A stretch of 64,000 nt of DNA, from assembly GCA_963281255.1 (NCBI GenBank), contig OY725489.1, positions 372,001 to 436,000 of the forward strand. Reading direction: 5' to 3'. The DNA comes from Aphrocallistes beatrix (lineage: Eukaryota > Porifera > Hexactinellida > Sceptrulophora > Aphrocallistidae). Below the pieces are notes generated by a model. It searched no databases. It was not told the origin of the DNA and saw nothing but the letters and a program-made list of their open reading frames with translations. Below are positions 16,340 through 64,000 of this stretch, in pieces (positions within the stretch are counted from its first letter, which is position 1; every line of letters starts with the position of its first letter). Position numbers and translations under genes: made by a program.

Positions 16340-17246
16340 TCATTGTGAAGTGTCTGTATTCGTTTCTGTGTCTGGAGTCTCTTGAGAATCTGGAAAAGAC
16401 TCGTGAGGAATGTAACTAAGATTAGAAGGTTCCAGTTCTTCGCTAGTAACCGGATAATCAGATGGAATGTACGGTTCGTAGCTTGGTTCTGATTGCTCAT
16501 TGGTTGAAAGAGTTGCTAGTACTTTAGACTCGGAGGCATTGAAAGGACTGATGAGCTCATCAGCCAATGGAATCGCTTCCTGCTGTTCTTCTCTCGGCAG
16601 CGCAGGTATATAAGGCTCCGATTCAGGAACTTGCTCAAGTGGAGAGGTGTCAACAGATAGTTCCGGTTTGTACTCACTCAGAGGTGTCAGTGTGTCTTGT
16701 TTCTGGATTTGAAATCGGGTAAAAGCGGGCTGATCCTTTATAGTTTCAATTTCAAGCGTTTCCGGTTTTGTGACACTCGCTACCACCTCACCACTTGACA
16801 CCTCCATTCGGATCTCGGGATAGGACACTTCTGGTTGGTTGAATTCCTGAATCAGCTGATCCCACGGCTCTTCAAGCATGCTCTCGTTGAAATAGAGAGA
16901 AATGTCAGCAGAGTCCGCACTGTTCTAAAAATAGAATAGTAAAGAGCTATTTATAGCGACATCAGTTAAATATTCACACCTTTTGGAAGTAGCCTCTCCC
17001 GCGTGATCTGCCCCGGTGGGAACCGGAACTGTACCGGTACCTATCGTTGCGCGCGTGATTGTGCTCCTGGAATTGGAACTGGAACCTACTTGGGTGGTCG
17101 GGCGGGGGGTGGAAGGGAGAGCTGAGCTCTGATTGGCCAGGTCTGGGGGGCAGAGGGATGGGTGGCAGGGGCTGGTATTTAGGATGTGGATTGGCGCGTC
17201 TTCTAAAACCGCGCCCACTTCTCCCGCGAAATTCTCTACCAGCCAT
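16340..17246 (-). CDS. MPLKIP: MPLKIP/TTDN1-like protein
   Basis: Two exons, 16980-17246 and 16340-16924, joined in phase 0, give 283 residues. The first exon is rich in Arg, Gly and Pro (RGRSGRGFRRR, PPIPLPPRP), as in TTDN1. The second opens with DISLYFNESMLEEPWDQL, matching the family hallmark ending in YF..SMLEDPW..L at about residues 97-113. The rest is an acidic, Ser/Thr/Pro-rich tail. In vertebrates MPLKIP is linked to lariat debranching and transcription-coupled repair and is mutated in trichothiodystrophy. The acidic tail is longer than in human. The start ATG follows CTATAAATAG by 4 bases. Confidence 0.72.
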
Positions 17247-17430
17247 GTCTCTATTTATAGAACACTAATGAGCTAACGCATTCTCTATTATAAACCAATC
17301 AATTCGAGTCCTCAGATCTATTTATAGAAGTTTTATTATAATAACCGCACCCAAATAGCATACATTGTACATCGAATAGACTTGATCGTGGCTAAATTGA
17401 ATATGGAACTATTCGCGTGACAAATTGGAA

Positions 17431-20400
17431 CTAATAGGCTAGGTCTGGACCGTCCAACTCCAACTCTTTGCAGCAGATGTTGTCATACACCCCAATTGTG
17501 TCCTCAATCTCGTTTAGCTTCTCCGCCACTTCCTGTGACTCCTCAAACTGATTGGCTGTCAGGTTGAAGTGGGTTCTCGGGAAGTAGTCCGATCTTCTGT
17601 CTAGAATGTGCAGATCCTTGCTGCGGAGGATTCCAGCCACGGAGGTGGAAGACTGAGGATCTGCCCTGAACTATGACGTCACAGAATTAATTGCAAACAC
17701 GTATTAGACCAGCGGGTCCCAAACTGTGGTGCATGAACCCCCTAGGGGTGCACGGGTCCTTAGTCGGGGGTGCACGGGGGACAAGGATTCGTCATTATTG
17801 CAATGACAAGTCGGATCGATATAGTTTTTCAGACTTAGGTGGGTCCTGGGGTGCACAAAATAATTTTTAGGTGTCAGGGGGTGCACGAGGTAAAAGTGGT
17901 TGGGAACTGCTTTAGACGAAACAATTCAAACAACAGAGACATTCCTGGTTCGAGGTTCAGGAAATCGGTCATTTCCCTTACACAAATATTTATAATACAA
18001 CCAAGTTTTATGGATAATATTAGAATAGACCCACAACATTGTGTTTGCATGGAAGGTCAAATTATGAATGCGTCTTCCTTCTCCAGTCCTTATCGAGGGT
18101 GGTTTTGGCCAATGAACGCTAAGTGAGGCCACTTTTTGCCGACACCACATTCGACACTTTCACAGAGTGGTCCTACTTCAGACCACTTCTAATTTTTGTG
18201 CTCCTTCAAGGGGCTAAATCGGACACAATTTTCTCACCTGCCAAAAGTCTTTTTCGAATTCGCTTTCTTTTTCTACTGAATAATCTTCTGCGCCAACTTC
18301 TATCGCAAGTTCTTCCAACTAAAATGGAACTGGAACTGAAACTATGCAATTCTATAATTAGTATCAACGGATACAAATATACACTCACATCATGTTCATT
18401 TGGTTCTGGTATTTCCACTTCGATTATTCCTAAAATACAAATCGGAACTAAAAATTACGATTAATCTTAAATATTTCTCTTGGTACATATGTTTCTATGG
18501 TTACAATCGTTTCACATTGGAATGCCTCGTTCTTTGCAACATATTCTTTAAATTCTTTGGTGTTCCCTGACAACCCAAAATATGTCTGTTTTGCAGCTAC
18601 AAAGACAGTTCCATTTGGAACTAAACCATTCTGGATAATGTCGAGTAATGTTTGGTAGTTACTCGTGTCATATATTGTTTCTGCCATCAAAATGAAGTCA
18701 AATTTCAGTGCATTTTGAACTAAAAATAGAATTAAGTTCGACCAAGCGCCGCTCAAAAAAGTTGCATTCTTGAATACATCTTCATAGTTACTGATATTCA
18801 TGAAAGTATGCGGGACGGTTGCACATTCCAGAACCTCAGTATTGTAGTCCTGAAACCAGACTTTGGCGCCTTTTCTTAGCGCCAAAATGCCCGGAATGCC
18901 AATGCCACAGCCAATTTCCAAAACGGACTTTCCTTCGAATGCAACATTCTGATTGGTCAGATACTCCACCAGATCAACTGCCCCCTCCCACAATCTGAAT
19001 CCGCCCTCGTACTCCCCTGCCACTATGTCCGAAGGCCCACTCGACCAATCAATCAGCTGCTTTTCATCGGATTTCGAATTCGGGTACAAATGTTGAATTT
19101 CGATCATTTCCGCTTTTTTGGGTTCAAAAGCAATTGCAAACTCATTTCCAGAAATATTCCTAACTGTCGGAGAGGTGTAAACTGGAACTGTGGTTTGTTC
19201 CAGTTTCAGAAAATCTAAATCGAGCTTTAGTACTGGTTTATGAGATAGTTCCAATTTAGACCCTCCTGTCGCATCCTTGGTGTCTTCTGTGAAAAAGTTA
19301 AACTTAAACTCGGCCATTTTAGAAATTATTTCCAATTCAACATTGAATTATTCCAACTTTTAACTTCGTTTTGGTTGTATTAAAATGTTAATATTAGAAA
19401 ACCACTTGAAAAAGAATATTCAACAGACAAATTGGAACTAACAGCTCTCAAATCAGAACTTAACAGCTCTCAAATTGGAACTTAACAGCTCTCAAATTAG
19501 AACTCAACAGCTCTCAAATTGGAACTTAACAGCTCTCAAATTGGAACTATGACTTTCCAAAATCCATTACGTCGCGAGGTGCTCAGAATATATCGACAGA
19601 TTCTGAAGGCGGGAGTTGATTGGGCAAGCACAGACCCGAGCAAGACCGAAATAGAACAGCAGTACATCCGAGAGGAATCAAGAAAACTATTCAAATCTAA
19701 CAAACATATCAGGGAAATTCCAGATATCCGTAACGGTATCCAAGAAGCTAAAGATAGACTGGAACTAGCCATCCATTACAAGAATCCATTTCCGCGCCCG
19801 ATTAGTTACCCGCTTAAATACGTCCCGAAAAGTCGAGGAAAAGTTAAAAATAGAATATTCCACCAATCGATTCCTTCCTACCTCAAGTCAACGCACAAGG
19901 AAGACTAAATTTAGATAATTTATATTATTAACATGAATAATCGCAAATTAATTGTATACACTTTTTGTTATTTATTTACACTCTAGCACAAAAGTACTAA
20001 AAATAGAAAATACAGCATCTTATCTAAAAATACACACAAACAATTCTATTTCTGGCTACGCTTCCAATATACACACACAAGCAAATCCTTACAAACGTTT
20101 CCAAATTGGAACTAAAAGCAGGACAGTTCCGGTGCCTAGTAGAGATTGACGAACCTCAGTTTCTTCTCATTGTCCTGCATGAACTTGTCCAGCCTTGGAA
20201 TCAGCTCAGTTTTGTCAGCTCGCAACAGAGCTCTCCTCAGCTGAGTGAACTGGAACTCGTCGAGGTAGTCGAAGTGGATTATTATGTCCAGCATATCTGT
20301 CTTGTCGATTATTTCACTCACCGACAGCTGTGGGAGGTATTCCTTCTTCATCTCCTGAAAATCACGTTCAGATATCACCCCGGGTTTCAAGAGATTTAAC

Positions 20401-22445
20401 AGGAAAAACCTAGCTTCTTTGAAACTTTTCAAAGGTGTCCCCATCACAGTTCTGTTCTCCACATCCATCAAGAACTGTACTAGCAGAGCATAACGTTCGT
20501 CCTTGTACACTAATTCTTTGTAGTCCTCCATCAGAATGGCTTGCTGTATGGCATCACTTTGTTGGTCCATCCCCAATAGGGACAACCAGTCCCTGAACAG
20601 AGATAGACAGAAGGCGCGCTTGGTGGATATGGAATAGAACAGACCAACACCTCTGTCCTCCAATGATTCGTCAGGTTTGTTGAAGCGGGGGTAGTCCCAA
20701 ATCTGGAAGTTGTAGATAATCCCAATCCGTTTGACAGTGTCGAAGGTTCCAAACAGATGGCCTTGCTCTTTCAGAAAGTCACGCATTTTATCTGTGAACT
20801 CCGTGTACTGTCCTATCCCGCGCCACTCCGAATCCTCTAGGCGGGGAAAGTTGGATGGCCAGTACTGGATACCACTTGGGAACTTCTCTCTGAGTCTCTT
20901 GAAGCCTTCCGGGATCTCTTCTTCCTTCACGGCCATTTGTTACTAATTTTAGTAACGAGTGGAAAGGGATTAAAAGAGAACGATTTTTAATTGGAAATAA
21001 TTTAGTTCTATATTTAGAGTTGTGGCATGTTATTTCCTTAAATAACAACAGTAAGCAATTACTAATTTAATCGGGTTGAAATTGGATACAGTCGTGTATG
21101 CTAGAGATGTACTCGGAGATTTGAACTAAAATTAGAACATTTCTCTCATCTTCCTGAAAAAGTATTTCAAGAATTGTTTATAACAACACACCACTGTCCA
21201 ACCTTTTCATGTGAATTTCTTAATCTGGACTTCCAAGATTTTATTTTTAAAATCGTATATGAAATATTCCAAAGTTTGTGTGTACCTTTACCTCCCCTAT
21301 CGGGGGGGATTCAAATATTTGGCGGTTCCTTAGTGGAGATCTTCCTCTGTGGTGTGCCTATGGGAGCCAGGGGGCCAACTTGAGCCACAATAAAAGCGGG
21401 ACATGGCGGGACGCAAATGAAAAATATACATTGAATCAAAAAGTAGGAAATAGAATGGAGAAATTTCATGGAAAAGAGGGACACTCGTTTAAATTAGCTC
21501 AATGGAACAGTGAAAAGGAGTGCCAGCCAAGCTTACCAATTGTCGGTTTGCCACTGGTTGGACAGTGCATTAAATCAAAGCCCCGGTTTGTGATACAAAA
21601 GTCCTTGTTTACAAAGTCAACAGTAAATATTAGTAAAAATAAAAACATCAAAATCAATTTCAGTGTATTTACAAGTGTTTGTTCCTAGACTCTCCCCTAT
21701 TGCAGGTCTCAATCAATGAATTCAATTCATTCGAGTCATTCCGGCGCATAATGTCGAGTAGAATGATAACTAGTTTGTCGCAAGCGAACCACTTGTCAGT
21801 TGGGACAAAGTTTCTCTGTTCCATGGATATAAAACCATTCAGAAGAGTTGGATTTCTCTCTCTTTCCTTTTTGGTTAATTCGAAATGATCCAGCATAAAA
21901 ACCTTATCGTCTTCAGTGTACTCGTTATCTGGAAACATCAAAATCTGTACAATAAGAATGCGAACGAGAAGGAATTGTTGCGTGAAAGTTGGCGCCATAC
22001 TTTTATCCAATTTTTTTTTCACACCTGCGTATTTATCTTCATCTTCAGCTTTGTAGTCTGGAAATTTGTCAAAATACTCGTCTATGATTCCAACCAGCCT
22101 ATGCTCTTTGCAAATATCTAGGAATCCTCTGAGGAGTGTTACATTCAGATCATTCTGCTCTTTCAACTTTTTCAATAAATTTGGAAATTCGTAACAATTC
22201 GGGATTTCGAAAAGGAAAGCTAAGGCCCTTTCTACATTATTGTCTAAGCCATCTGGCAGTTTGGTGGTCAAGTACAAGTGGATCTCGTGTGGCGTTTCTA
22301 TTGGAGGGTCTCTCACTGCCATTCTGAGGTGTTAGTTCTAATTGGGTTTGTTAGTTCAAGTAAATGTCCGTAGTAAACAAATAGTACAGCAACAGTATAA
22401 ACCACCAAAGGTGTGAAAGCTTCATGGTTATTTATGTATATATAC

Positions 22446-22508
<63 letters not shown>

Positions 22509-25500
22509 AGCGCGCTTCGCTTGCTTGCGCTGCGCGACTGGCGGACACTTTGTGTCCCCCGGAGGCGCCCTTTGGGCGCCTAGGGTCATATTGATTAATT
22601 AAAAGGAAGATAACATCTCTAAATACGTCTGTTCTGACCAGAGACGAAAATATCGAATCATCATGGAGTTATGACGTCATTGTCACCTTTTTTATAATTA
22701 GAAATTTCAGTTTTTCGACTATAACTCGGCCATTTTAAGTAATAGAAGGCTGAAATTTTTATAGAATGTGTATATTGACATTCTTCACATGTGATATGCC
22801 ATCAAAAAATGATGACTCATCACTCTGTTATGACGCCATCACTACGCATCAAAAAAATTTACAAATTTACAAATTTGATGATTTTTCGAGTGATATCGAT
22901 TTTAACAGCAAGACAGACATATTTAGTGATGTTATATCCCTTATAATTAATCAAAGTGAGCCCAGGCGCCCAAAGGGCGCCTCCAGCGGACACAAAGTGT
23001 CCGCCAGCCGCGCAAAGCAAGCGCGCTTGTTTGTCATTAACTCAATATAATCATGATCCTGAGATTATTTTACCACCAGGGCAGTGGTTCCCAAACTGGG
23101 TTGGGGTGTCCACACTTTCTTATGGTTAATCGAGATGGGCTCACATAGAGCAAGGGTGCAGCCAAGGTCTCATCCAATAATTTTGGGCATAACTCTAAAA
23201 AATAAAGGCCCATATGATTGGTGAAAATTGACATAATAAGTCTCTGAAACAAACTCGGCGAATACGAATTCCATGGGATCCGTACTGGGGCAAAGGAATG
23301 TCTATGTCGGCGCCCAAAATATTTACAAAGCATCTCGCCATTAACATCAGATTAAACCTCAAAAGGAATGGCAGACACTTCGTCGATGGACATTTCATCT
23401 TCTGAACTTTCGTCCCTGGAATTTTCACCCCTTGAAATACGTCTTTCGCACCTACTTATTTCACGATCAAAAAGCCCTCATTTTCTCACCCTTTTTTTCA
23501 AACATATTCCACTCAAAAAGCCTCAACTTCACACATTGGTACATTACCCGTTTATTTTAGTCTCTAATTAGGCAAATTCCCGTGAAAAGAGATAAAAATT
23601 CCGCTACACATTGTTCGGTAACTAATGTTCAGAGAACGAACTGTCCGTCGATGAAGTGTCGGTCGACAAAGTGTCCGATTGCCCCTCAAAGGATCCGGGA
23701 GACTTTATTTAGTTAACACGAGTATATTCTGATTCTAACGGAGGACACAGTCAGAATTAGAACACGACACAATCATAAGTTTCCATATACAGTAGAGTCC
23801 CAAAATGGACACTCATAGAAGCGGACAGCCACTCCACAACGGACAAACCTCGTGGAAGGAATGGCTATATCATATAAGATATAATAGCAGCATTCTCCGA
23901 GAACAGGACATATCTCTAGAAAGGACAAAGCCATGTTCCAAATGTGCCCCTTAATCGGAGACTGCACTGTGTTAGATGCCCGAGCTAAGAGAGAGTACAC
24001 ATCCTAGGGTAGTTTCCTGGGTGGATATTTCTTAGTGTTTACTTGTTTACTTATTAAGGACTTGTTTACATTTTTATTTACGTTTAGGTAACTAGCTAGG
24101 AATTATAAGATGTCCATTTGTTCAAAATACGTATATAGTTTTACCTTAGTTACTGTATATAAGTAAAGTATGTATACACAATTAATCGTAAATATAAATC
24201 TAAAATAGGCTAAGATTAAAATGGAACTGAAACTAACTAGGACCGACCTTTCTCTACAAAAAACGAAGCGCCGGTTCCAGCTGGAAGGATTGTCAACCTA
24301 GAATTGGAACTAAATTAAGAATCAATTCAGAACCATCTCTTATACCAGCAGGCAGTGCATAATAATAGTGGATATTAGGTTTCATGGAGTGGCGTAAAAG
24401 TGGTTTGTGACACAATATCCAACTCTGTAGCCATTTACTAAGCAATTCATTGGTTGGTTAATAACACAAGATTATAAGCCAGGGCTCAGTTATGATCATA
24501 TTCACTGTAGCTATTTTTACAACTCTAAGAATAAGAATAATGATTATATTTAGTTTGTGTTAGAATAAATGAGATATTTATAGTGGCATGGTGTCAATCA
24601 AACCTGTGCTTAGCAACATGATTTCGTAACTGGAATGTGTCAGAAGTGGCACACTGGGCGAGAAAAAAGTGGCTACTAAATTCGTTCAGATTAGAACTGT
24701 GCAGTAAATCCTATAAATAGAACCGTATTGGGTGGCACAGCCTAGCAACCAATGTGACTTACTGGTATTTGCGCGCCACTTTCTTAATTTGTGCCTTGGA
24801 TTGGTTGATACCATTCAGATCTCCAGACAGCGACACCAGAAATGTGAAACCACTCTCACCCCTCAGCGCCACGTGTTGTGTCACAATCTTACCCTATGAA
24901 GACACATTATATATTTAGTACCAGCTCTAGCTATTGGACCAATGGGACCCACCTGTTTGGTGGTGAGGGACCTATCTAAGGTGGATTTAGGTATTTGCAA
25001 TTCTCTCCCTTTCACTATCAGCTGTCTCAGCTCTGTGTTCTGTTCTAGGCTAGCTCCGTTCTCTAAGTAAACAACGGAGTAAACAAACAAACAAACAAAC
25101 AAACAAACAAACAAACAAACAAACAAACAAACAAATAAACAAACAAACAAACAAACAAACAAACAAACAAACAAACAAACAAACAAATAAACAAACAAAC
25201 AAACAAACAAACAAACAAACAAACAAACAAACAAACAAACAAATAAACAAACAAACAAACAAACTCACCTCGAATCGATCGTTTTATTTTGGTTACAAAT
25301 TTAGAGACGAATGTGGCGCGGACACAATCTGCTGCCATTTTTTTCCTCCCAATTTTGGACCACCTATTGTGTCCCGCCCATCTCAGCTGAGTGGCATTAA
25401 ACCGGAACTCAAAGGCCTCCTGATTCGGAACCAAGTGCAGATAGGTTCCAATTTGTCTGATTTTGCTGTGTCTGCAGTTGCAGAGGTGTGAAAATATTGT

Positions 25501-25521
25501 TAATCTATGTAAACTAAGCAT
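17431..25521 (-). CDS. TACO1: TACO1 mitochondrial translational activator (YebC family), 7 exons, hosts nested genes
   Basis: Exons: 25269-25521, 24953-25062, 24763-24893, 24248-24297, 18389-18429, 18238-18318, 17431-17670. All phases agree and give 301 residues, near the 297 of human. Exon 1 encodes a basic mitochondrial presequence and the family start AGHNRWSKI. Exon 2 has LQIPKSTLDRSL. Exon 4 ends in FFVEKG, exon 5 gives IIEVEIPEPNEHD, exon 6 LEELAIEVGAEDYSV, exon 7 FRADPQSS and the closing IGVYDNI. The protein acts in the mitochondrial matrix, supporting COX1 synthesis. Intron 4 (18430-24247) is about 5.8 kb, while the other introns are about 58-567 bases. It contains METTL18, LYRM1 and two death-effector-like genes plus MITEs. 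Intron 1 is almost entirely a TTTG microsatellite. The 50-base exon 4 was found by phase and family match. Confidence 0.9.
17710..17909. mobile_element. hAT-type MITE in TACO1 intron 6
   Basis: A 200-base element begins CAGCGGGTCCCAAACTGTGG and ends GTGGTTGGGAACTG, the classic hAT terminal pattern. It is flanked by the imperfect 8-base duplication TATTAGAC / CTTTAGAC. The interior has repeated GGGGTGCACG motifs. No coding. Confidence 0.78.
18448..19317 (-). CDS. METTL18: METTL18-like protein histidine methyltransferase, nested in TACO1 intron 4
   Basis: A single-exon 289-residue class I methyltransferase. After a family-like start (MAEFKFNFFTED) come SDIVAGEYEGGFRLWE, the SAM-binding VLEIGCGIGIPG near residues 145-157, FQDYN, and MAETIYD, as in METTL18. 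METTL18 methylates a histidine of ribosomal protein RPL3. The stop codon lies about 18 bases before the acceptor of TACO1 exon 5, so the gene occupies the 3' edge of the host intron. It is divergent from LYRM1, with 231 bases between the two ATGs. An in-frame CTATTTTTAG inside the coding region looks like an acceptor, but the frame is intact and the protein matches across it. Confidence 0.87.
   Translation of the reverse strand: MAEFKFNFFTEDTKDATGGSKLELSHKPVLKLDLDFLKLEQTTVPVYTSPTVRNISGNEFAIAFEPKKAEMIEIQHLYPNSKSDEKQLIDWSSGPSDIVAGEYEGGFRLWEGAVDLVEYLTNQNVAFEGKSVLEIGCGIGIPGILALRKGAKVWFQDYNTEVLECATVPHTFMNISNYEDVFKNATFLSGAWSNLILFLVQNALKFDFILMAETIYDTSNYQTLLDIIQNGLVPNGTVFVAAKQTYFGLSGNTKEFKEYVAKNEAFQCETIVTIETYVPREIFKINRNF
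19430..19548. repeat. 22-base minisatellite in the METTL18-LYRM1 divergent promoter
   Basis: About five copies of AATTGGAACTTAACAGCTCTCA with minor changes fill the space immediately before the LYRM1 ATG. The start codon itself arises from the last, truncated unit (TTGGAACTATG). Any promoter elements for LYRM1, and perhaps METTL18, must lie in or next to the array. Confidence 0.8.
19549..19908 (+). CDS. LYRM1: LYRM1 (LYR-motif protein), nested in TACO1 intron 4 on the opposite strand
   Basis: A single-exon protein of 119 residues of the Complex1_LYR family. The LYR-type helix appears as VLRIYRQILKAG, followed by QQYIREESRKLFKSNK and the LYRM1-specific C-terminal AIHYKNPFPRPI. LYR proteins act in mitochondria with acyl carrier protein and iron-sulfur or complex-assembly partners; the exact role of LYRM1 is less settled. 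It is one of only two host genes on the plus strand. The chosen start MTFQNPLRREV matches the family N-terminus. Confidence 0.87.
   Translation: MTFQNPLRREVLRIYRQILKAGVDWASTDPSKTEIEQQYIREESRKLFKSNKHIREIPDIRNGIQEAKDRLELAIHYKNPFPRPISYPLKYVPKSRGKVKNRIFHQSIPSYLKSTHKED
20136..20936 (-). CDS. Death-effector-like protein A, nested in TACO1 intron 4
   Basis: A single-exon 266-residue protein without a confident family match. The C-terminal third (from about residue 165) has death-effector-like helical spacing: ARFFLLNLL, a middle helix, IIDKTDMLDIIIHFDYLDEF, then LRRALLRADKTELIPRLDKF, resembling the last helices of FADD or caspase DEDs. The N-terminal part is rich in aromatic residues and unassigned. 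If the call is right, it would act as a cytosolic adaptor in apoptosis or innate signalling. AAATTAG lies 6 bases before the ATG. It shares the MAV(K/R) start and helical pattern with the gene at 22322, suggesting an old tandem pair. Confidence 0.55.
   Translation of the reverse strand: MAVKEEEIPEGFKRLREKFPSGIQYWPSNFPRLEDSEWRGIGQYTEFTDKMRDFLKEQGHLFGTFDTVKRIGIIYNFQIWDYPRFNKPDESLEDRGVGLFYSISTKRAFCLSLFRDWLSLLGMDQQSDAIQQAILMEDYKELVYKDERYALLVQFLMDVENRTVMGTPLKSFKEARFFLLNLLKPGVISERDFQEMKKEYLPQLSVSEIIDKTDMLDIIIHFDYLDEFQFTQLRRALLRADKTELIPRLDKFMQDNEKKLRFVNLY
21360..21545 (+). repeat. Dispersed AAAAGCGGGACA repeat, copy 1
   Basis: The sequence from GCCAACTTGAGCCACAATAA through AAAGCGGGACATGGCGGGAC, GGAGAAATTTCATGG and ACACTCG recurs at 41635-41830 in the same orientation and at 54714-55045 inverted. 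No open frame is conserved. It is a medium-copy non-coding repeat in TACO1 intron 4. Confidence 0.7.
21669..22322 (-). CDS. Death-effector-like protein B, nested in TACO1 intron 4
   Basis: A single-exon 217-residue protein. Residues about 10-85 look like a DED: LTTKLPDGLDNNVERALAFL, then LLKKLKEQNDLNVTLLRGF and HRLVGIIDEYFDKF, close in pattern to FADD's MLLEQNDLEPGHTELLREL and HDLLRRVDDF. A second helical block (LLDIMRRNDSNELNSLIETC) near the end could be a degenerate repeat. Partner and pathway are inferred only. The ATG stands 1 base after CACCTCAG. Within the host intron it is in the same orientation as the host. Confidence 0.55.
   Translation of the reverse strand: MAVRDPPIETPHEIHLYLTTKLPDGLDNNVERALAFLFEIPNCYEFPNLLKKLKEQNDLNVTLLRGFLDICKEHRLVGIIDEYFDKFPDYKAEDEDKYAGVKKKLDKSMAPTFTQQFLLVRILIVQILMFPDNEYTEDDKVFMLDHFELTKKERERNPTLLNGFISMEQRNFVPTDKWFACDKLVIILLDIMRRNDSNELNSLIETCNRGESRNKHL
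22438..22506. repeat. (TA)n microsatellite
   Basis: Nearly pure TA dinucleotides abut the left end of the palindromic element at 22507. TA runs are frequent insertion targets. Confidence 0.95.
22507..23029. mobile_element. Palindrome-rich element with about 75-base inverted ends
   Basis: The ends are built from a chain of short palindromes (GCGCTTCGCTTGCTTGCGC, GGACACTTTGTGTCC, GGCGCCCTTTGGGCGCC) and are inverted between 22507-22593 and 22962-23029. The interior is AT-rich with no coding. A relative begins at 59257 inside the transposon complex, where the interior is in inverted orientation. Confidence 0.78.
23030..24247. other. Remainder of TACO1 intron 4: degenerate MITE debris
   Basis: It contains a hAT-like terminus (CAGTGGTTCCCAAACTGGG near 23082), an inverted pair of TTCGTCGATGGACA-type words (around 23385 and 23645), and a TA-type MITE candidate from about 23792 (CAGTAGAGTCCC) to about 23970 (GGAGACTGCACTG). 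No host coding is supported. Confidence 0.5.
25078..25263. repeat. (AAAC)n microsatellite filling TACO1 intron 1
   Basis: About 46 AAAC units, read as TTTG on the transcript strand, with an AAAT variant recurring roughly every 52-56 bases, which indicates expansion of a higher-order unit. It occupies nearly the whole intron between donor 25268 and acceptor 25063. Confidence 0.97.
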
Positions 25522-28449: not shown

Positions 28450-30543
28450 AAACAACCAAATAAACATTTTAGAACAATTGTAAACTATAATTAGGATTAT
28501 CAGACAATACAAACAAAATGCCAGAATTAGAAATGGCAATACCACGTGGAGCAATGAATTCTCCTTTCCCGTTCCCTTTCCTTCCAATGGTGTGGAGGAG
28601 CTCCCCGGAGTTTGAGAGTATCTTGATGGCATGGTGTCCAAAGTCACTAACGAGGATATTCTGTTTAAAGTCCAGACAGAAGAACAAAGGATTCCGTACC
28701 AAACATCCCTGATCTTCTCCCTGAGACACGCAGGAGGTAAGGAGGTCTCCACTTCTGGAGAAGAAGTGGATGCAGTTGGGACTCCTGTCTAGTACCACCA
28801 CTTTATCTGTCGTTAGTTTTACGTCTAGAGGTTGAGATAGCGATCCTTGTCCGATAGTCTGTTTGTATTGTAGGAGGTTAGAGAACACGGATACTCTGTC
28901 GTTCCATTGGTCAGCTACAAACACGTCTCCATTCCAGTCCACACTTAATCCCAGTGGATTAAACAGCTGTCCTTCATTACTCCCCTCACCACCAGCTCTG
29001 TTGTGTAGTTGGTGGCTGTTCTTACAGAACTGGAATAGCGTGTCATTACCATGGTCTGTTACGAGGATGTGATTGTCAGTGACTGATATTCCACAAGGTC
29101 CGGATAGTACTTCCTCTCCAAAGTGAGATAGGAACTCTCCTTGGAAGGAGAGTACCTGTACTCGACTGTTCCAACAATCCGCTATATAAACCTTCTCATT
29201 CACTTCGTCTAGAGACAGTCCAGTACCATCAAGCTGTTTATCTCCTTTCCCTCTCGTCCCAGCGGTTAGGATGGGTTGTGTCTTTTGAGAGTAAAGCGGT
29301 GCTTCCAGCTGGACTACCTCCCCGAACTGCTCTATCTGGGTCTGAAGGAGGGAGAGGGTGGGACGGGAAAAGGAGAGGATGGGTAGTGGGGTGGGAACAC
29401 ACAGCTGCTGCTTGTACTGTTCGTACATGAGTCCTGCTTGCTCGTGAGCGGGGAGGTTAATGTTCACTTTACTCATTTCATTCAGATGCAGCAGAGTTTG
29501 ATCCAACTCTTCGATGGCTGCGACACGAGTGGACTCTTTGTTGTGGAAGTCATCGCGAAGATGTGCCACTACTTGGCAGAGAGTGTCTCTCCTCTCGATC
29601 AGCTGATCGATCAGGCCATTCAATGTGTCTGTGATTCGCGCGGCGATGCGATCGAAATGCGCAATTGTGTCGTAAGGGACAATTTCTGGGATATTCTCTT
29701 GAATATTTTCTTGAATATTTTCTTGGATATTTTGCTGAATATTTTCTTGAATATTTTCTTGAATATTGGTTGCCATTGCTTCACTTTTGAGTAGAATAGT
29801 TTGTGTTGAATAGAAATATTATACTCTACAACGAAGACACAATCTATATTATATGTAATATGAGAATACCAATGGACGTCAATGGTTGCTGTGGAAACTA
29901 CTGTAAAGTTAGGGAATTTACAATATTGGTTACGCAAGTTGTTGGAAATATACTGAAAGTTATAATTCACTGATTTTGATTGATATCTAATTTCACGAGT
30001 CTACAAGAATGGATGAAATATTCTAAATTTAGTTGTACAACTAAGAAACTGTCACAGAAGCCAATCGGAACTAAGAATCCCTTGGTTCTAGTTTGCATAT
30101 GGACCAATCAATGACAAGTGTCTCAATCCGATAAGAGTGGATTTCTGGAATTCTTTTCAATCTCAATCGTCACCATTTCAATCAAATCATTGGTCAAACA
30201 CAAATCTTTATTCATTGGCTCTATTTGTAAGAAATGGATAGATGTGTCTTCAAGTGGCAGTCATGCTACATTCCAGAGTTCACAGCGACACTTTTTCAAA
30301 CATTTCTCACTTCTATGTTACAACTAAACATGGTGTCGCTCTACTACCCTAACCCATCGGTTATGTCAGTCACCAATCAAAGTTCACGATTTCTAAGGAT
30401 TTCATTGGTCAATCATTAATTAATAGGACTGGTTTAGCCAATTAATTTAGCAGCTCAAACTGGAACTAAGCCTTAACGAACTCTTAATTATTCTATTTCA
30501 GTTCCAGATTGATTGAGTAATCCTAACTCAAATATAACCAATG
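28450..30543. repeat. Segmental duplication, copy 1
   Basis: About 2.1 kb is almost identical to 34665-36743 in the same orientation. It covers the whole NHL-repeat gene plus about 770 bases of its upstream flank. The right boundaries are sharp (after AACCAATG at 30543 and 36743). Confidence 0.9.
28469..29776 (-). CDS. NHL-repeat protein with coiled coil, copy 1 (TRIM-NHL-like, no RING)
   Basis: A single-exon 435-residue protein. Residues 1-30 are a Gln-Glu-Asn-Ile repeat (QENIQENIQ). A predicted coiled coil follows to about residue 130, including ITDTLNGLIDQLIERRDTL. Six or so NHL beta-propeller blades span about 170-435, each marked by patterns such as NEKVYIADCWNSRVQVL, GDVFVADQWNDRVSVFS and NPLGLSVD. 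Layout resembles the coiled-coil and NHL part of TRIM2/TRIM71-type proteins, without RING, B-box or filamin domains. NHL propellers bind RNA or protein; the target is unknown. This copy is intact. KYAT starts 197 bases downstream. Confidence 0.87.
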   Translation of the reverse strand: MATNIQENIQENIQQNIQENIQENIQENIPEIVPYDTIAHFDRIAARITDTLNGLIDQLIERRDTLCQVVAHLRDDFHNKESTRVAAIEELDQTLLHLNEMSKVNINLPAHEQAGLMYEQYKQQLCVPTPLPILSFSRPTLSLLQTQIEQFGEVVQLEAPLYSQKTQPILTAGTRGKGDKQLDGTGLSLDEVNEKVYIADCWNSRVQVLSFQGEFLSHFGEEVLSGPCGISVTDNHILVTDHGNDTLFQFCKNSHQLHNRAGGEGSNEGQLFNPLGLSVDWNGDVFVADQWNDRVSVFSNLLQYKQTIGQGSLSQPLDVKLTTDKVVVLDRSPNCIHFFSRSGDLLTSCVSQGEDQGCLVRNPLFFCLDFKQNILVSDFGHHAIKILSNSGELLHTIGRKGNGKGEFIAPRGIAISNSGILFVLSDNPNYSLQLF

Positions 30544-34664: not shown

Positions 34665-36743
34665 AACAACTAAATAAACATTTCAGAACAATTGTAAACA
34701 ATAATTAGGATTATCAGACAATACAAACAAAATGCCAGAATTAGAAATAGCAATACCATATGGAGCTATGAATTCTCCTTTCCCGTTCCCTTCCCTTCCA
34801 ATGGTGTGGAGGAGTTCCCCGGAGTTTGAGAGTATCTTGATGGCATTGTGTCCCCAGTCACTAACGAGGATATTCTGTTCACTGTCTAGACAGAAGAACT
34901 GAGGATAACGTACCAAACATCCCTGATCTCTTCCCTGAGACACGCAGGAGGTAAGGAGGTCTCCACTTCTGGAGAAGAAGTGGATGCAGTTGGGACTCCA
35001 GTCTAGTACCACCACTTTATCTGTCGTTAGTTTCACGTCATGAGGGAAAGATAGCGATCCTTGTCCGATAGTCTGTTTGTATTGTAGGAGGTTAGAGAAC
35101 ACAGAAACTCTGTTGTTCGATTGGTCAGCTACAAACACGTCTCCATTCCAGTCCACACTTAATCCCAGTGGATTATACAGCTGTCCTACATTACTCCCCT
35201 TATCACCAGCTCTGTTGAGTAGTTGGTGGCTGTTCTTACAGAACTGGAATAGCGTGTTATTACCCCAGTCTGTTACGAGGATGTGATTATCAGTGACTGA
35301 TATTCCCCAAGGCATGGATAGTACTTCCTCTCCAAAGTGAGATAGGAACTCTCCTTGGAAGGACAGTACCAGTACGCGACTGTTCCCAAATCTGCTATAT
35401 AAACCTTCTCATTCACTTCGTCTAGAGACAGTCCCATACCAATAAGCTGTTTATCACCTTCCCCTTCCGTCCCAGCGGTTAGGATGGGTTGTGTCTTTTG
35501 AGAGTAATGCGGTGCTTCCAGCTGGACTACCTCCCCGAACTGCTCTATCTGGGTCTGAAGGAGGGAGAGGGTGGGACAGGAGAAGGAGAGGTTGGGGAGT
35601 GGGGTGGGAACACACAGCTGCTGCTTGTACTGTTCGTACACGAGTCCTGCTTGCTCGTGAGCGGGGAGGTTAATGTTCACTTTACTCATTTCATTCAGAT
35701 GCAGCTGAGTTTGATCCAACTCTTCGATGGCTGCGACACGAGTGGACTCTTTGTTGTGGAAGTCATCGCGAAGATGTGCCACTACTTGGCAGAGAGTGTC
35801 TCTCCTCTCGATCAGCTGATCGATCAGGCCATTCAATGTGTCTGTGATTCGCGCGGCGATGCGATCGAAATGCGCAATTGTGTCGTAAGGGACAATTTCT
35901 GGGATATTCTCTTGAATATTTTCTTGAATATTTTCTTGGATATTTTGCTGAATATTTTCTTGAATATTTGTTGCCATTGCTTCACTTTTGAGTAGAATAG
36001 TTTGTGTTGAATAGAAATATTATACTCTACAACGAAGACACAATCTATATTATATGTAATATGAGAATACCAATGGACGTCAATGGTTGCTGTGGAAACT
36101 ACTGTAAAGTTAGGGAATTTACAGATTGGTTACGCAAGTTGTTGGAAATATACTGAAAGTTATAATTTACTGATTTTGATTGATATCTAATTTCACGAGT
36201 CTACAAGAATGGATGAAATATTCTAAATTTAGTTGTACAACTAAGAAACTGTCACAGAAGCCAATCGGAACTAAGAATCCCTTGGTTCTAGTTTGCATAT
36301 GGACCAATCAATGACAAGTGTCTCAATCCGATAAGAGTGGATTTCTGGAATTCTTTTCAATCTCAATCGTCACCATTTCAATCAAATCATTGGTCAAACA
36401 CAAATCTTTATTCATTGGCTCTATTTGTAAGAAATGGATAGATGTGTCTTCAAGTGGCAGTCATGCTACATTCCAGAGTTCACAGCGACACTTTTTCAAA
36501 CATTTCTCACTTCTATGTTACAACTAAACATGGTGTCGCTCTACTACCCTAACCCATCGGTTATGTCAGTCACCAATCAAAGTTCACGATTTCTAAGGAT
36601 TTCATTGGTCAATCATTAATTAATAGGACTGGTTTAGCCAATTAATTTAGCAGCTCAAACTGGAACTAAGCCTTAACGAACTCTTAATTATTCTATTTCA
36701 GTTCCAGATTGATTGAGTAATCCTAACTCAAATATAACCAATG
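34665..36743. repeat. Segmental duplication, copy 2
   Basis: A direct-orientation copy of 28450-30543, including the NHL gene and its upstream flank. Differences are scattered substitutions, fewer QENI repeat units and one single-base deletion in the NHL coding region. Confidence 0.9.
34683..35977 (-). pseudogene. NHL-repeat protein, copy 2, frameshifted
   Basis: It is the same gene as at 29776, but near 35386-35390 one base is missing: GACTGTTCCCAAATCTGC here against GACTGTTCCAACAATCCGC in copy 1. The frame carrying the QENI repeats, coiled coil and first propeller strand therefore ends in a wrong-frame tail, and the remaining NHL blades continue in another frame to 34683. The rest of the gene is free of stops, so the change is recent or a sequencing error. 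If real, the copy could make only a truncated coiled-coil protein of about 234 residues. Confidence 0.8.
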
Positions 36744-57165: not shown

Positions 57166-59045
57166 CTAAAAGAAAAACTTGTTCAATTCTCTCTTCACAA
57201 TCCCGCCTTTTTTAGCGATATCTGCTTGCACGAAGCTATCAGCAATTTCATAGAAACTTTTCCTAGCATCAAAATCCTTAATCACTTTTCCCCAGTAAGA
57301 CAAACAGCTCTTCAACGTGTTCGTTAATTGTTTTTCCCCAAAAATCTCAGAAAGTACAAACGCACAGAACGGTGCTTGATAGTTCTCAAGTCCGAATTCC
57401 CCAAGGCATTTCAGTATCCTAGTGATCCTAAGGTAGTTATGGAATGAGCTATTGAGTAATGAGTACTGCTGCTTTTGATTCTTATCAGAACGCGCGATTT
57501 CTCCTGATTCCCTACCAACCAATTTCATCCCAAAGAAATCCAGCATCAACTCGTAGCTACGTATAAGCCTATCTTTCAGATCCTCGTCTTGTCTTAACTT
57601 ATTTATTTCGTGTTTCTGTAATGGATGTGCTCTATTGTTCAAATCTTGTTCTTGGATTGGGAATAACCACTGAATGTAGCCGTGATGCTGTTCTAGCCAA
57701 TCATAATTTCCGAACCAACTTTTATGGATGTCGTCTATGTAATCGCCGTTTGGTTGTGACTCGATTTGGTTCAGGTAAAATTCTAAATTTAGATTCAGCG
57801 CAGGGCTATCTTCAGCTTCAGGATAGCCATCCAAATACCTAAAAATAGAAAAAATAAAAGGGACGATATGGGAGTGACAGCGGTCTGTCATAAAGGAACT
57901 TACCCCCGAAGTAAAGTGTCCGGGGGGCAACGTATTTCGAAGTAAGTTTCCCCTGGGGGACACTATACTTTGGGGGCAAGTTACTTCGTGAATCGTGACA
58001 GGTGTTAAATGTACCTCAAAACTGCTCCTCCTAGATATCTCCACAGACATATGACACTAGGGTGAGCAGTCTTTGGGTCAGATGCACCCCTACCCTCTCT
58101 CCTAAATTCAGATTCCCTCCAGTGGAGGGCATGACTAATTTCTGGGATGGGACAGTCCCGGAAAATCTAGATACCTAATTTCCGCGACGGGACGAAAATT
58201 AGGTACGTCCCCAGAAGATCGCCTAGATTGGGTAATTAACCCCAGTACTCCGTTACCGTTTCATCGGTACCTAAGTACCATCAGTCCAGAGAGAGTGGGG
58301 GGAAGCTAGGAAAGCTACTAAGGGAAGGAAACTGGGAAGGAGCCAGTGGCGGCGCGAGGGTGGGACTAGGGGGCAGGAGGGATACAGCCCCCCCCCGTCT
58401 TAGGAACGTTACCCCCCCCCCTATCGGGAAAATTTATAATCTGCCAGAAATTTAGAAGAGACACTCTAATTTAGCTCCCATCGGAGACCTTAGTCGGGGA
58501 ATTCCTGGCGCCCCCTGTGGTCGGGTGCTCGCGCCCTCTAGTGAGAGCTGATACAGGGGGGTAATGCGGAAATAGTTCGACTTTTAGAAGTCAAACTATT
58601 TCCGGTTTTTTTGCGAACTATTTCCACCATACCATACATGGGTGTCCATGAACACACCAATGAGTGGCAGGATAGAGATATACCTTTCAGTGTCTTCACT
58701 TGCATAGTACCCTCCCATCATTTTCTGCAGCTCCTTTGATAGGTTACTAACGAAATCTTCCCACTCCTTTTGTTGTCTCTGTTTGGTTCTCCGCAGGCCG
58801 TGTCTACTGGGAGATTGGCTGGCGCCTTTGAGCAGACTTTCATCATCAGACACCTTCCCTCTTTTCTTTCCATTCGCTGCCACTATCTGCCACTCGCCTT
58901 CAGATGTCTTTTCTGTGCTATTGTCCAGATCTGGTCCCTCGCTAGATGTCACGGGACAGGTGTCAAGTGGCATATCTTCATTATCATTAGGTGGCACAGA
59001 GGCTTCAGGTGTGGCAGTAGGAGGTGTTGGGTTTATTGTTGCCAT
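57166..59045 (-). CDS. OGFr-domain protein, copy 1
   Basis: Exons 58684-59045 and 57166-57838 join as AG|G in phase 2 and give 344 residues. The first exon encodes an acidic, Ser/Pro-rich leader with a short basic helix (RRTKQRQQKEWEDFVSNL). The second is the opioid growth factor receptor conserved region: NYDWLEQHHGYIQWLFPIQE, NRAHPLQKHEI, SYELMLDFFGMKL and LRITRILKCLGEFGLE. In vertebrates OGFr is a nuclear-envelope-associated regulator of proliferation; a role in invertebrates is not established. The intron holds several MITEs, including a palindrome (57893-57995) and C-tract-rich debris. TATTTAG stands 15 bases before the ATG. Confidence 0.88.
57893..57995. repeat. Palindromic element in the OGFr intron
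   Basis: GGAACTTACCCCCGAAGTAA ... TTTGGGGGCAAGTTACTTCG forms a near-perfect hairpin with repeated AAAGTGTCC / GGGACACT cores. The same element is at about 63750-63850 in unit 2. Confidence 0.75.
58125..58212. mobile_element. Short CCTAATTTCCGGGACGGG-family element
   Basis: GGGCATGACTAATTTCTGGGATGG ... CCTAATTTCCGCGACGGGACG ... AATTAGGTACGTCCCC: a diverged relative of 13300-13449 in the OGFr intron. The unit 2 counterpart begins at the window end (63975). Confidence 0.6.
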
Positions 59046-63021: not shown

Positions 63022-63694
63022 CTAAAAGAAAAACTTGGTCAATTCTCTCCTTACAATTCCGCCTTTTTTAGCGATATCTGCTTGAACGAAACTATCAGCT
63101 GTTTCGTAGAAACTTTTCCTCGCATCAAAATCCTTAATCACTTTTCCCCAGTAAGACAAACAGCTCTTCAACGTGTTCGTTAATTGTTTTTCCTCAAAAA
63201 TCTCAGAAAGTACAAACAAACAAAACGGTGCTTGATACTTCTCAAGTCCAAATTCCCCAAGGCATTTCAGTATCCTAGTGATCCTAAGGTAGTTATGGAA
63301 TGAGCTATTGAGTAATGAGTACTGCTGCTTTTGATTCTTATCAGAACGCGCGATTTCTCCTGATTCCTTACCAACCAATTTCATCCCAAAGAAATCCAGC
63401 ATCAACTCGTAGCTACGTATAAGCCTATCTTTCAGTTTCTCGTCTTGTCTTAACTTATTTATTTCGTGTTTCTGTAAAGGATGTGCTCTATTGTTCAAAC
63501 CTTGTTCTTGTATTGGGAATAACCACTGAATGTAGCCGTGATGCTGTTCTAGCCCATCATAATCCCCGAACCAATATTCGTTGATGTTGTCTATAAAATC
63601 GCCGTTTGGTTGAGATTTAATTTGGTTCAGGTAAAATTCTAAATTTAGATTCAGCGCAGAGTTATCTTCAGCTTTAGGATAGCCATCCAAATAC
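63022..63694 (-). CDS. OGFr-domain protein, copy 2, second exon only
   Basis: A 673-base exon identical in length and acceptor position (CTATTTTTAG) to exon 2 of copy 1, intact to its stop. It retains LEQHHGYIQWLFPIQEQ, NRAHPLQKHEI and LRITRILKCLGEFGLE, with about 20 amino-acid differences including NYDWLEQ changed to DYDGLEQ. The loss of that Trp alters a strongly conserved position and may affect folding. The first exon should lie just beyond 64000. Confidence 0.82.
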
Positions 63695-64000
63695 CTAAAA
63701 ATAGAAAAAATAAAAGGGACGATATGGGAGTGACAGCGGTCTGTCATGAAGGAACTTACCCCCGAAGTAAAGTGTCCGGGGGGCAACTTATTTCGAAGTA
63801 AGTTGCCCCCTTGGGGACACTTTACTTTGGGGGCAAGTTACTCCGTGGATCGTGACAGGTGTTAAATGTACCTCAAGACTGCTCCTCCCAGTTCAGATAT
63901 CTCCACAGACGTATGACACTAGGGTGAGCAGTCTTCGGGTCTCCTAAATTCTGCTAATAATTTTAGATTCCCTCCAGATCCCATCCCGGAAATTAGTCAT

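Follow-up and report, generated by a model that had tools for sequence, protein, structure and literature searches.

The TACO1 gene and its fourth intron

In the hexactinellid sponge Aphrocallistes beatrix, a single intron of the gene for TACO1, a protein with a role in mitochondrial translation, encloses the coding sequences of four other genes, and one public protein record indicates that RNA from the host gene can be spliced into one of them. The locus lies in a stretch of 64,000 nucleotides (nt), called the window below (contig OY725489.1, positions 372,001 to 436,000, assembly GCA_963281255.1), and all coordinates are counted from the first nucleotide of that stretch.

TACO1 consists of seven minus-strand exons that join into a single open frame of 301 residues. 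The coding part of exon 1 (25269..25521) was matched in a protein search of the genome and is contained in the public protein P0003, which is described below. Exons 2 (24953..25062), 3 (24763..24893) and 4 (24248..24297) were placed by the reading frame; exons 2 and 3 are joined by splicing in P0003, in which the exon 4 donor, gtcggt, is also used. The reading frame likewise gives exons 5 (18389..18429) and 6 (18238..18318) and exon 7 with the stop codon (17431..17670), the last of which was in addition matched in the protein search and is followed by an AATAAA at 17337. Between exons 4 and 5 lies intron 4 (18430..24247), which contains the four foreign coding sequences and is presumably removed at its full length of 5,818 nt.

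A first-pass annotation of the sequence had stated that the exons flanking this intron join in exact phase and recreate the TACO1 family sequence, and this was borne out. The join of 24248 to 18429 is in phase 1, has GT-AG borders and reads FFVEKG|IIEVEIPEPNEHD; the predicted spliced protein is collinear with the TACO1 structure 5ekz in a PDB sequence comparison (residues 20-287, E 8e-25); and the two halves of the gene carry complementary domains. Scanned alone, exons 1-4 match PF20772 (positions 1-72 of 73) and leave PF01709 unmatched, and exons 5-7 match PF01709 as their sole family (positions 57-160 of 160, 48.8 bits), a match that widens to positions 12-160 of 160 and 64.4 bits when the halves are joined. 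The joined protein is a member of the TACO1/YebC family by both domains (PF20772 at 44.8 bits against a cut-off of 36; PF01709 against a cut-off of 27).

A second TACO1 locus, which would have assigned the two sets of exons to different genes, was looked for in the whole 100.5-Mb genome with the TACO1 protein as query; all six matches fell at the present locus, with no sign of a second copy. When the genome was searched for the PF01709 family there were zero matches, which is ascribed to limited sensitivity, since the exon-by-exon protein search did find the locus. Because the halves are complementary and the genome matches all lie here, the large intron 4 is, as far as can be read from the sequence, real gene structure of the sole TACO1 found. 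Conservation thus predicts splicing from 24248 to 18429, and as exons 5-7 have kept their PF01709 match, the full-length protein is presumably produced.

Intron 1 (25063-25268) is nearly all tandem AAAC repeat (46 copies, 25081-25264). Two other stretches, one in intron 6 directly before exon 7 (17704-17911) and one in intron 4 (23082-23100), resemble terminal repeats of the hAT type. The next open reading frame (ORF) on the same strand starts 91 nt beyond the TACO1 AATAAA (17246-17337), an operon-like spacing, and has an acceptor-like ctataaatag right before its ATG.

Genes within intron 4

Intron 4 encloses METTL18 and two genes labelled DED1 and DED2 on the host strand, and a LYR-family gene on the opposite strand, in agreement with the strands given in the first-pass annotation. 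The description of four complete, single-exon genes within the intron stood only in part. All four coding sequences lie wholly inside the intron, but the METTL18 stop codon ends just 18 nt from TACO1 exon 5; and the coding parts are indeed uninterrupted, but the transcript from which P0003 derives uses an acceptor situated 15 nt upstream of the DED2 start codon.

The METTL18 coding sequence (18448..19317, minus strand) has a PF10294 methyltransferase domain (52.5 bits, cut-off 21) and its best of five PDB matches is 4rfq (E 5.8e-29), so that the proposed identity as a histidine protein methyltransferase is well supported, with the activity itself putative. METTL18 and the LYR gene are arranged head to head with 231 nt between their starts, an arrangement that suggests a promoter inside the nest; the spacer contains a 22-bp tandem repeat (19428..19548) found in a repeat scan. 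The LYR gene (19549..19908, plus strand, 119 residues) had been named LYRM1, of which the family assignment holds (Complex1_LYR, 36.2 bits against a cut-off of 24.8); the PDB sequence search returned only NDUFB9, at E 0.14. On its strand there is no AATAAA before 21389 and no ATTAAA before 20969, and for this reason its 3' end may overlap DED1 in antisense or use a variant signal.

DED1 (20136..20936, minus strand, 266 residues) and DED2 (21669..22322, minus strand, 217 residues) each have an AATAAA downstream, 160 nt past the stop codon for DED1 (at 19976) and 424 nt for DED2 (at 21245), and because of these signals a transcript lying entirely within the host intron is possible for both. Upstream of DED2 is an inverted-repeat element (22507..23033, outer limits drawn by eye) with arms at 22523-22632 and 22913-23022. 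It belongs to a genome-wide family, with at least 97 matches (best 40 scored of 5786 candidate places).

Searches for further copies of the nested genes, in which only the best candidates were scored, found one 29% match to METTL18, on contig C7, and one 36% paralogue of DED2, also a single ORF; the LYR gene and DED1 gave no match beyond themselves. Origin of the nested genes as retrogenes with a surviving parent was considered and set aside, as no intron-bearing parent was found for METTL18, the LYR gene, DED1 or DED2.

The names DED1 and DED2 are used here as labels only. These genes had been called death-effector-like, a description that finds no adequate support: DED2 scores 16.1 bits with the Pfam DED profile, below the cut-off of 35.9, and DED1 matches no Pfam family. 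Nor did the Pfam scan find a DED match in the DED2 paralogue or in P0002, a 50% relative of DED1. Both proteins are predicted to be helical, and the mean predicted local distance difference test scores of their structure models are low (42.0 for DED2 and 47.7 for DED1). A fold search with the low-confidence DED1 model gave no match at E<=0.001 among 205; its entries included a designed CARD-based protein (6jcc, prob 0.89, rank 6, E 1.1) and the APAF-1 CARD (1cy5, prob 0.47, rank 30, E 3.2), both non-significant. In the PDB sequence search DED1 had no match and DED2 had two chance matches (E 0.52 and 0.54), and the two proteins show no detectable relationship to one another (best E 0.92). With Pfam scores below cut-off, low-confidence models and no significant fold match, membership of the death effector domain family was rejected.

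Public proteins include a near-identical copy of DED1, P0001, of 266 residues, from contigs of at most 1112 nt. The relative P0002 is carried on a 498-kb contig, and among the genome contigs nine stretches matched it by pattern and none was confirmed.

A transcript that joins TACO1 to DED2

A query of public proteins with full-length TACO1 found two among 1066 candidates, namely P0003 (98% identity) and a distant TACO1, P0004 (26%); a query weighted towards the C-terminal exons found P0003 alone (one match among 139 candidates). P0003 carries the source tag 'lgn', which we take to denote the Logan assemblies, and comes from one contig of 1947 nt. In this protein introns 1-3 are gone and TACO1 is followed to the end of exon 4, after which the last 33 residues are unrelated to TACO1 and correspond to the DED2 leader and early DED2 sequence read in another frame. 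The junction links the exon 4 donor (24248) with an acceptor (22337) that precedes the DED2 start codon by 15 nt; it removes an alternative intron of 1910 nt (22338..24247) and leaves a 15-nt DED2 leader (22323..22337) 3' of the acceptor.

A model made of exons 1-4 and the sequence from 22337 agrees with P0003 at 210 of 214 residues; all four differences are in the TACO1 part, and the tail is identical at 33 of 33. When both sides of the junction were shifted by as much as 15 nt, three joins yielded the P0003 tail, and the only one of the three with GT-AG borders uses the donor that had been predicted from homology. Since introns 1-3 are absent and no second genomic copy was found, spliced RNA is most simply the source of P0003. 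One might object that a single record from one contig could be an artefact, produced in library preparation or in assembly, and yet such an artefact would hardly fall on a GT and an AG at the homology-predicted donor with none of 33 tail residues different; we regard this explanation as very unlikely. Because the GT-AG join is matched at 210 of 214 residues, host RNA is spliced into the nested DED2 gene, on the evidence of one record at the protein level. The four residue differences suggest that this RNA came from a different individual, of this species or of one very close to it.

The chimeric protein begins with the first 181 TACO1 residues, ends with the 33-residue tail, retains PF20772 and leaves PF01709 unmatched. 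Its frame ends at a stop codon at 22237-22239 and overlaps the DED2 start codon, and it is therefore doubtful that the chimeric mRNA yields DED2 protein. Counted from the TACO1 start codon to a point about 20 nt beyond the AATAAA of DED2, the chimeric mRNA would measure 1662 nt; set against the contig of 1947 nt, this fits an mRNA that ends at the DED2 signal itself, as a matter of arithmetic only. Transcripts from such loci can resemble a truncated host protein, which is a warning for annotation.

The exactness with which the P0003 junction falls on splice sites could also mean that the locus is a programmed shared unit, in which TACO1 and DED2 have the TACO1 promoter and exons 1-4 in common and regulation acts on the choice at 24248. 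There is a precedent in CPNE1/RBM12, where two proteins arise from one set of 5' exons (PMC2568002, as far as the part of that source drawn on here goes). However, the exons shared here are coding and their frame crosses the DED2 start, which should make for poor translation of DED2, and evidence of regulation is lacking; the DED1 protein P0001, with its contigs of at most 1112 nt, is neutral as regards DED2. We consider a programmed unit of this kind unlikely.

The 3' end of METTL18

At the opposite end of the nest, the 18 nt between the METTL18 stop codon and exon 5 leave very little room. By the usual rules for the spacing of branch points and polyadenylation (poly(A)) signals, the final codons of METTL18 sit where the branch point for host exon 5 is expected. 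Downstream on this strand the first AATAAA is that of TACO1 itself, at 17337, although weaker poly(A) variants exist, the first at 18400 within TACO1 exon 5. Because of the 18-nt spacing and the lack of an AATAAA until 17337, the METTL18 mRNA is likely to overlap exon 5 of the host or to extend to the host 3' end, as judged from these positions. The spacing is the stronger point, and the missing AATAAA alone says little.

In a bolder form of the shared-unit proposal, the whole nest would be one regulated unit, with TACO1 set against DED2 at 24248 and METTL18 using the 3' exons of TACO1. If this were true, each mRNA of the DED2 type would be made at the cost of full-length TACO1, and mitochondrial translation would be coupled to a possible death or immune adaptor. 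We hold this extended version to be decidedly unlikely.

A proposed splice choice and the insulation of the nest

The first-pass annotation had treated host and nested genes as insulated units, which does not agree with a transcript that joins exon 4 to the DED2 leader instead of exon 5, nor with the 18 nt left for the 3' end of METTL18. The reading that we favour, as reasonably probable, is that of a nested-gene locus with incomplete insulation, in which the exon 4 donor has two outcomes, exon 5 or the DED2 acceptor. TACO1 would be transcribed through the 5.8-kb intron and the four genes that it encloses. Joining of donor 24248 to exon 5 at 18429 would give full-length TACO1, and joining of the same donor to the acceptor at 22337 would give the chimeric mRNA for which the one protein record speaks. 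A likely cause of the second outcome is a weak donor that commits to the nearer acceptor before the distant exon 5 has been made: the intron 4 donor is gtcggt, the donors of introns 1, 2, 3, 5 and 6 are gtgagt, gtgggt, gtaagt, gtgagt and gtgaga, and the DED2 acceptor lies 1.9 kb from the exon 4 donor as against 5.8 kb for exon 5. Choice of 22337 would convert the DED2 poly(A) signal from intronic and silenced to exonic and active, and the general prediction is that, in joining one acceptor or the other, the exon 4 donor also sets whether a nested poly(A) signal is intronic or exonic. At the other end of the nest, the METTL18 3' end would lie within or beyond host exon 5.

Insulation of the separate units, with P0003 as rare noise of no consequence, has some evidence on its side, in the poly(A) signals 160 and 424 nt past the DED1 and DED2 stop codons, in the promoter suggested by the head-to-head METTL18 and LYR genes, and in the insulation of nested pairs in Drosophila (PMC3890989, in the part of the report relied on here). 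Against this, the sole near-identical TACO1 protein recovered is the chimera, and METTL18 still lies only 18 nt from a host exon; full insulation therefore seems improbable to us.

Several observations also weigh against incomplete insulation. P0003 is a single protein record, known at the protein level only and with no abundance given, and it differs from the window at four residues. The arguments from donor strength and distance are drawn from sequence and uncalibrated. More than half of 26 sampled long ORFs have no AATAAA within 700 nt past the stop codon, which makes its absence after METTL18 weak evidence, and a YAG ends 0-14 nt before the ATG in 14 of 26 long ORFs (4 to 13 in the other eight 15-nt bins), a small sample. 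The acceptor at 22337 may serve a local 5' exon or a trans-spliced leader; spliced leaders are reported from the compact genomes of Hormiphora californensis (PMC8527503) and Aphrocallistes vastus (PMC10282587), in the parts of both sources used here. Finally, the 24248-18429 junction is absent from the public proteins recovered (two matches among 1066 candidates, and one among 139 with the C-terminal weighting), although the lack of a full-length TACO1 record is weak evidence, the protein database being clustered and the search bounded by length and shared words.

That same absence is what one would expect if exons 1-4 and exons 5-7 were two genes, never joined in mRNA. Together, however, the two sets form a single collinear TACO1 that has both domains, the genome search revealed no further copy of the gene, and exons 5-7 contain no in-frame ATG in translation; the two-gene explanation is thus most improbable, and incomplete insulation of a single host gene remains the preferred interpretation.

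Other features of the window

The motif CTA[AT]4TAG, which to us resembles the MEF2 consensus, occurs 69 times in the 64-kb window and 10 times in 146 kb sampled from contig C1, frequently flanked as TTCTA....TAGAA. Five control patterns of the same shape occur 0 to 2 times in the window and 4 to 27 times in the C1 sample. Sequence beside the window has 3 copies in 10.0 kb and 8 in 9.9 kb, and a stretch of contig C6 has 1 in 9.9 kb. There are 216 copies of TTCTATTTATAGAA genome-wide compared to 23 of a reversed control, and positions are available for the first 100 matches, on contigs C1 to C9. Among these listed matches, 11 of the 13 on C2 are within the first 0.7 Mb or the last 0.5 Mb of this 7.6-Mb contig, and two of these fall in the window, and 12 of the 20 on C1 lie within the last 1.5 of 12.5 Mb. 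A simple end effect is opposed by the 8 listed on C3, which are spread, and the nine listed on C9, all inside a span of 28 kb, may form a single repeat array. CTA[AT]4TAG and TTCTATTTATAGAA are possibly a regional, chromosome-end DNA motif. The motif TTGGAACT appears to be regional too, with 36 copies in the window (3.6 expected) against 9 in the 146 kb sampled from C1.

According to the ORF list, an NHL-repeat gene is present as very similar neighbouring copies (28469-29776 and 34683-35977), the second of which consists of two overlapping ORFs, and so is another gene (57166-58050 and 63022-63786). No RNA families or tRNAs were found within the window.

Comparison with known nested genes

Animal genomes commonly contain nested genes, and the usual picture of these is one of sealed units. 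The present locus is a compact case, with exact coordinates, of host splicing into one nested gene and of a second nested gene that has almost no room for its 3' end. There are published examples of hosts with several nested genes, of nesting on the host strand, of host exonization and of nested poly(A) sites that are silenced in a splice-dependent manner. The open-licence literature, outside which most subscription papers lie, yielded no paper on TACO1 together with 'nested gene' and none on METTL18 together with 'single-exon'. The five sources compared below are drawn on in part, and statements about what they describe are limited to those parts.

The ctenophore Hormiphora californensis has 2357 nested genes in 1654 hosts, many of them parallel with the host, and 1109 of the 2357 have mobile elements on at least one side (PMC8527503); the element upstream of DED2 may be likened to these. 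That genome also provides an example of four genes within one host gene, but two of the four are doubly nested rather than side by side in one intron, and a splice junction from host to nested gene is not among the features described in the part considered (PMC8527503). The glass sponge Aphrocallistes vastus likewise has a compact animal genome with nested genes, 2432 in number, and the portion of that report drawn on here does not describe a chimera of host and nested gene (PMC10282587).

The human nested genes CHML in OPN3 and KTI12 in TXNDC12 force exonization in their hosts (PMC3192792). As at the present locus, an upstream host exon is spliced to an acceptor close to a nested gene that has one exon and lies on the host strand; the exonized sequence in the human cases, however, lies upstream of the nested gene, whereas here the acceptor is 15 nt from the ATG and the frame enters the coding sequence (PMC3192792).

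In Drosophila, where 727 of 1651 nested genes share the host orientation, the host ignores nested poly(A) signals while they are intronic, and removal of the 5' splice site restores them (PMC3890989). The first-pass annotation had presented the sponge nest as a strong test of transcription-unit insulation, but the general question was already addressed in that work. Both systems have same-strand nested genes with poly(A) signals in a host intron; the two Drosophila pairs tested were insulated, whereas the present locus leaks, if the reading given above is right (PMC3890989). CPNE1/RBM12 resembles the present case in that one set of 5' exons leads to two unrelated proteins, and differs from it in that the shared exons are non-coding there, while four coding exons precede DED2 here (PMC2568002).
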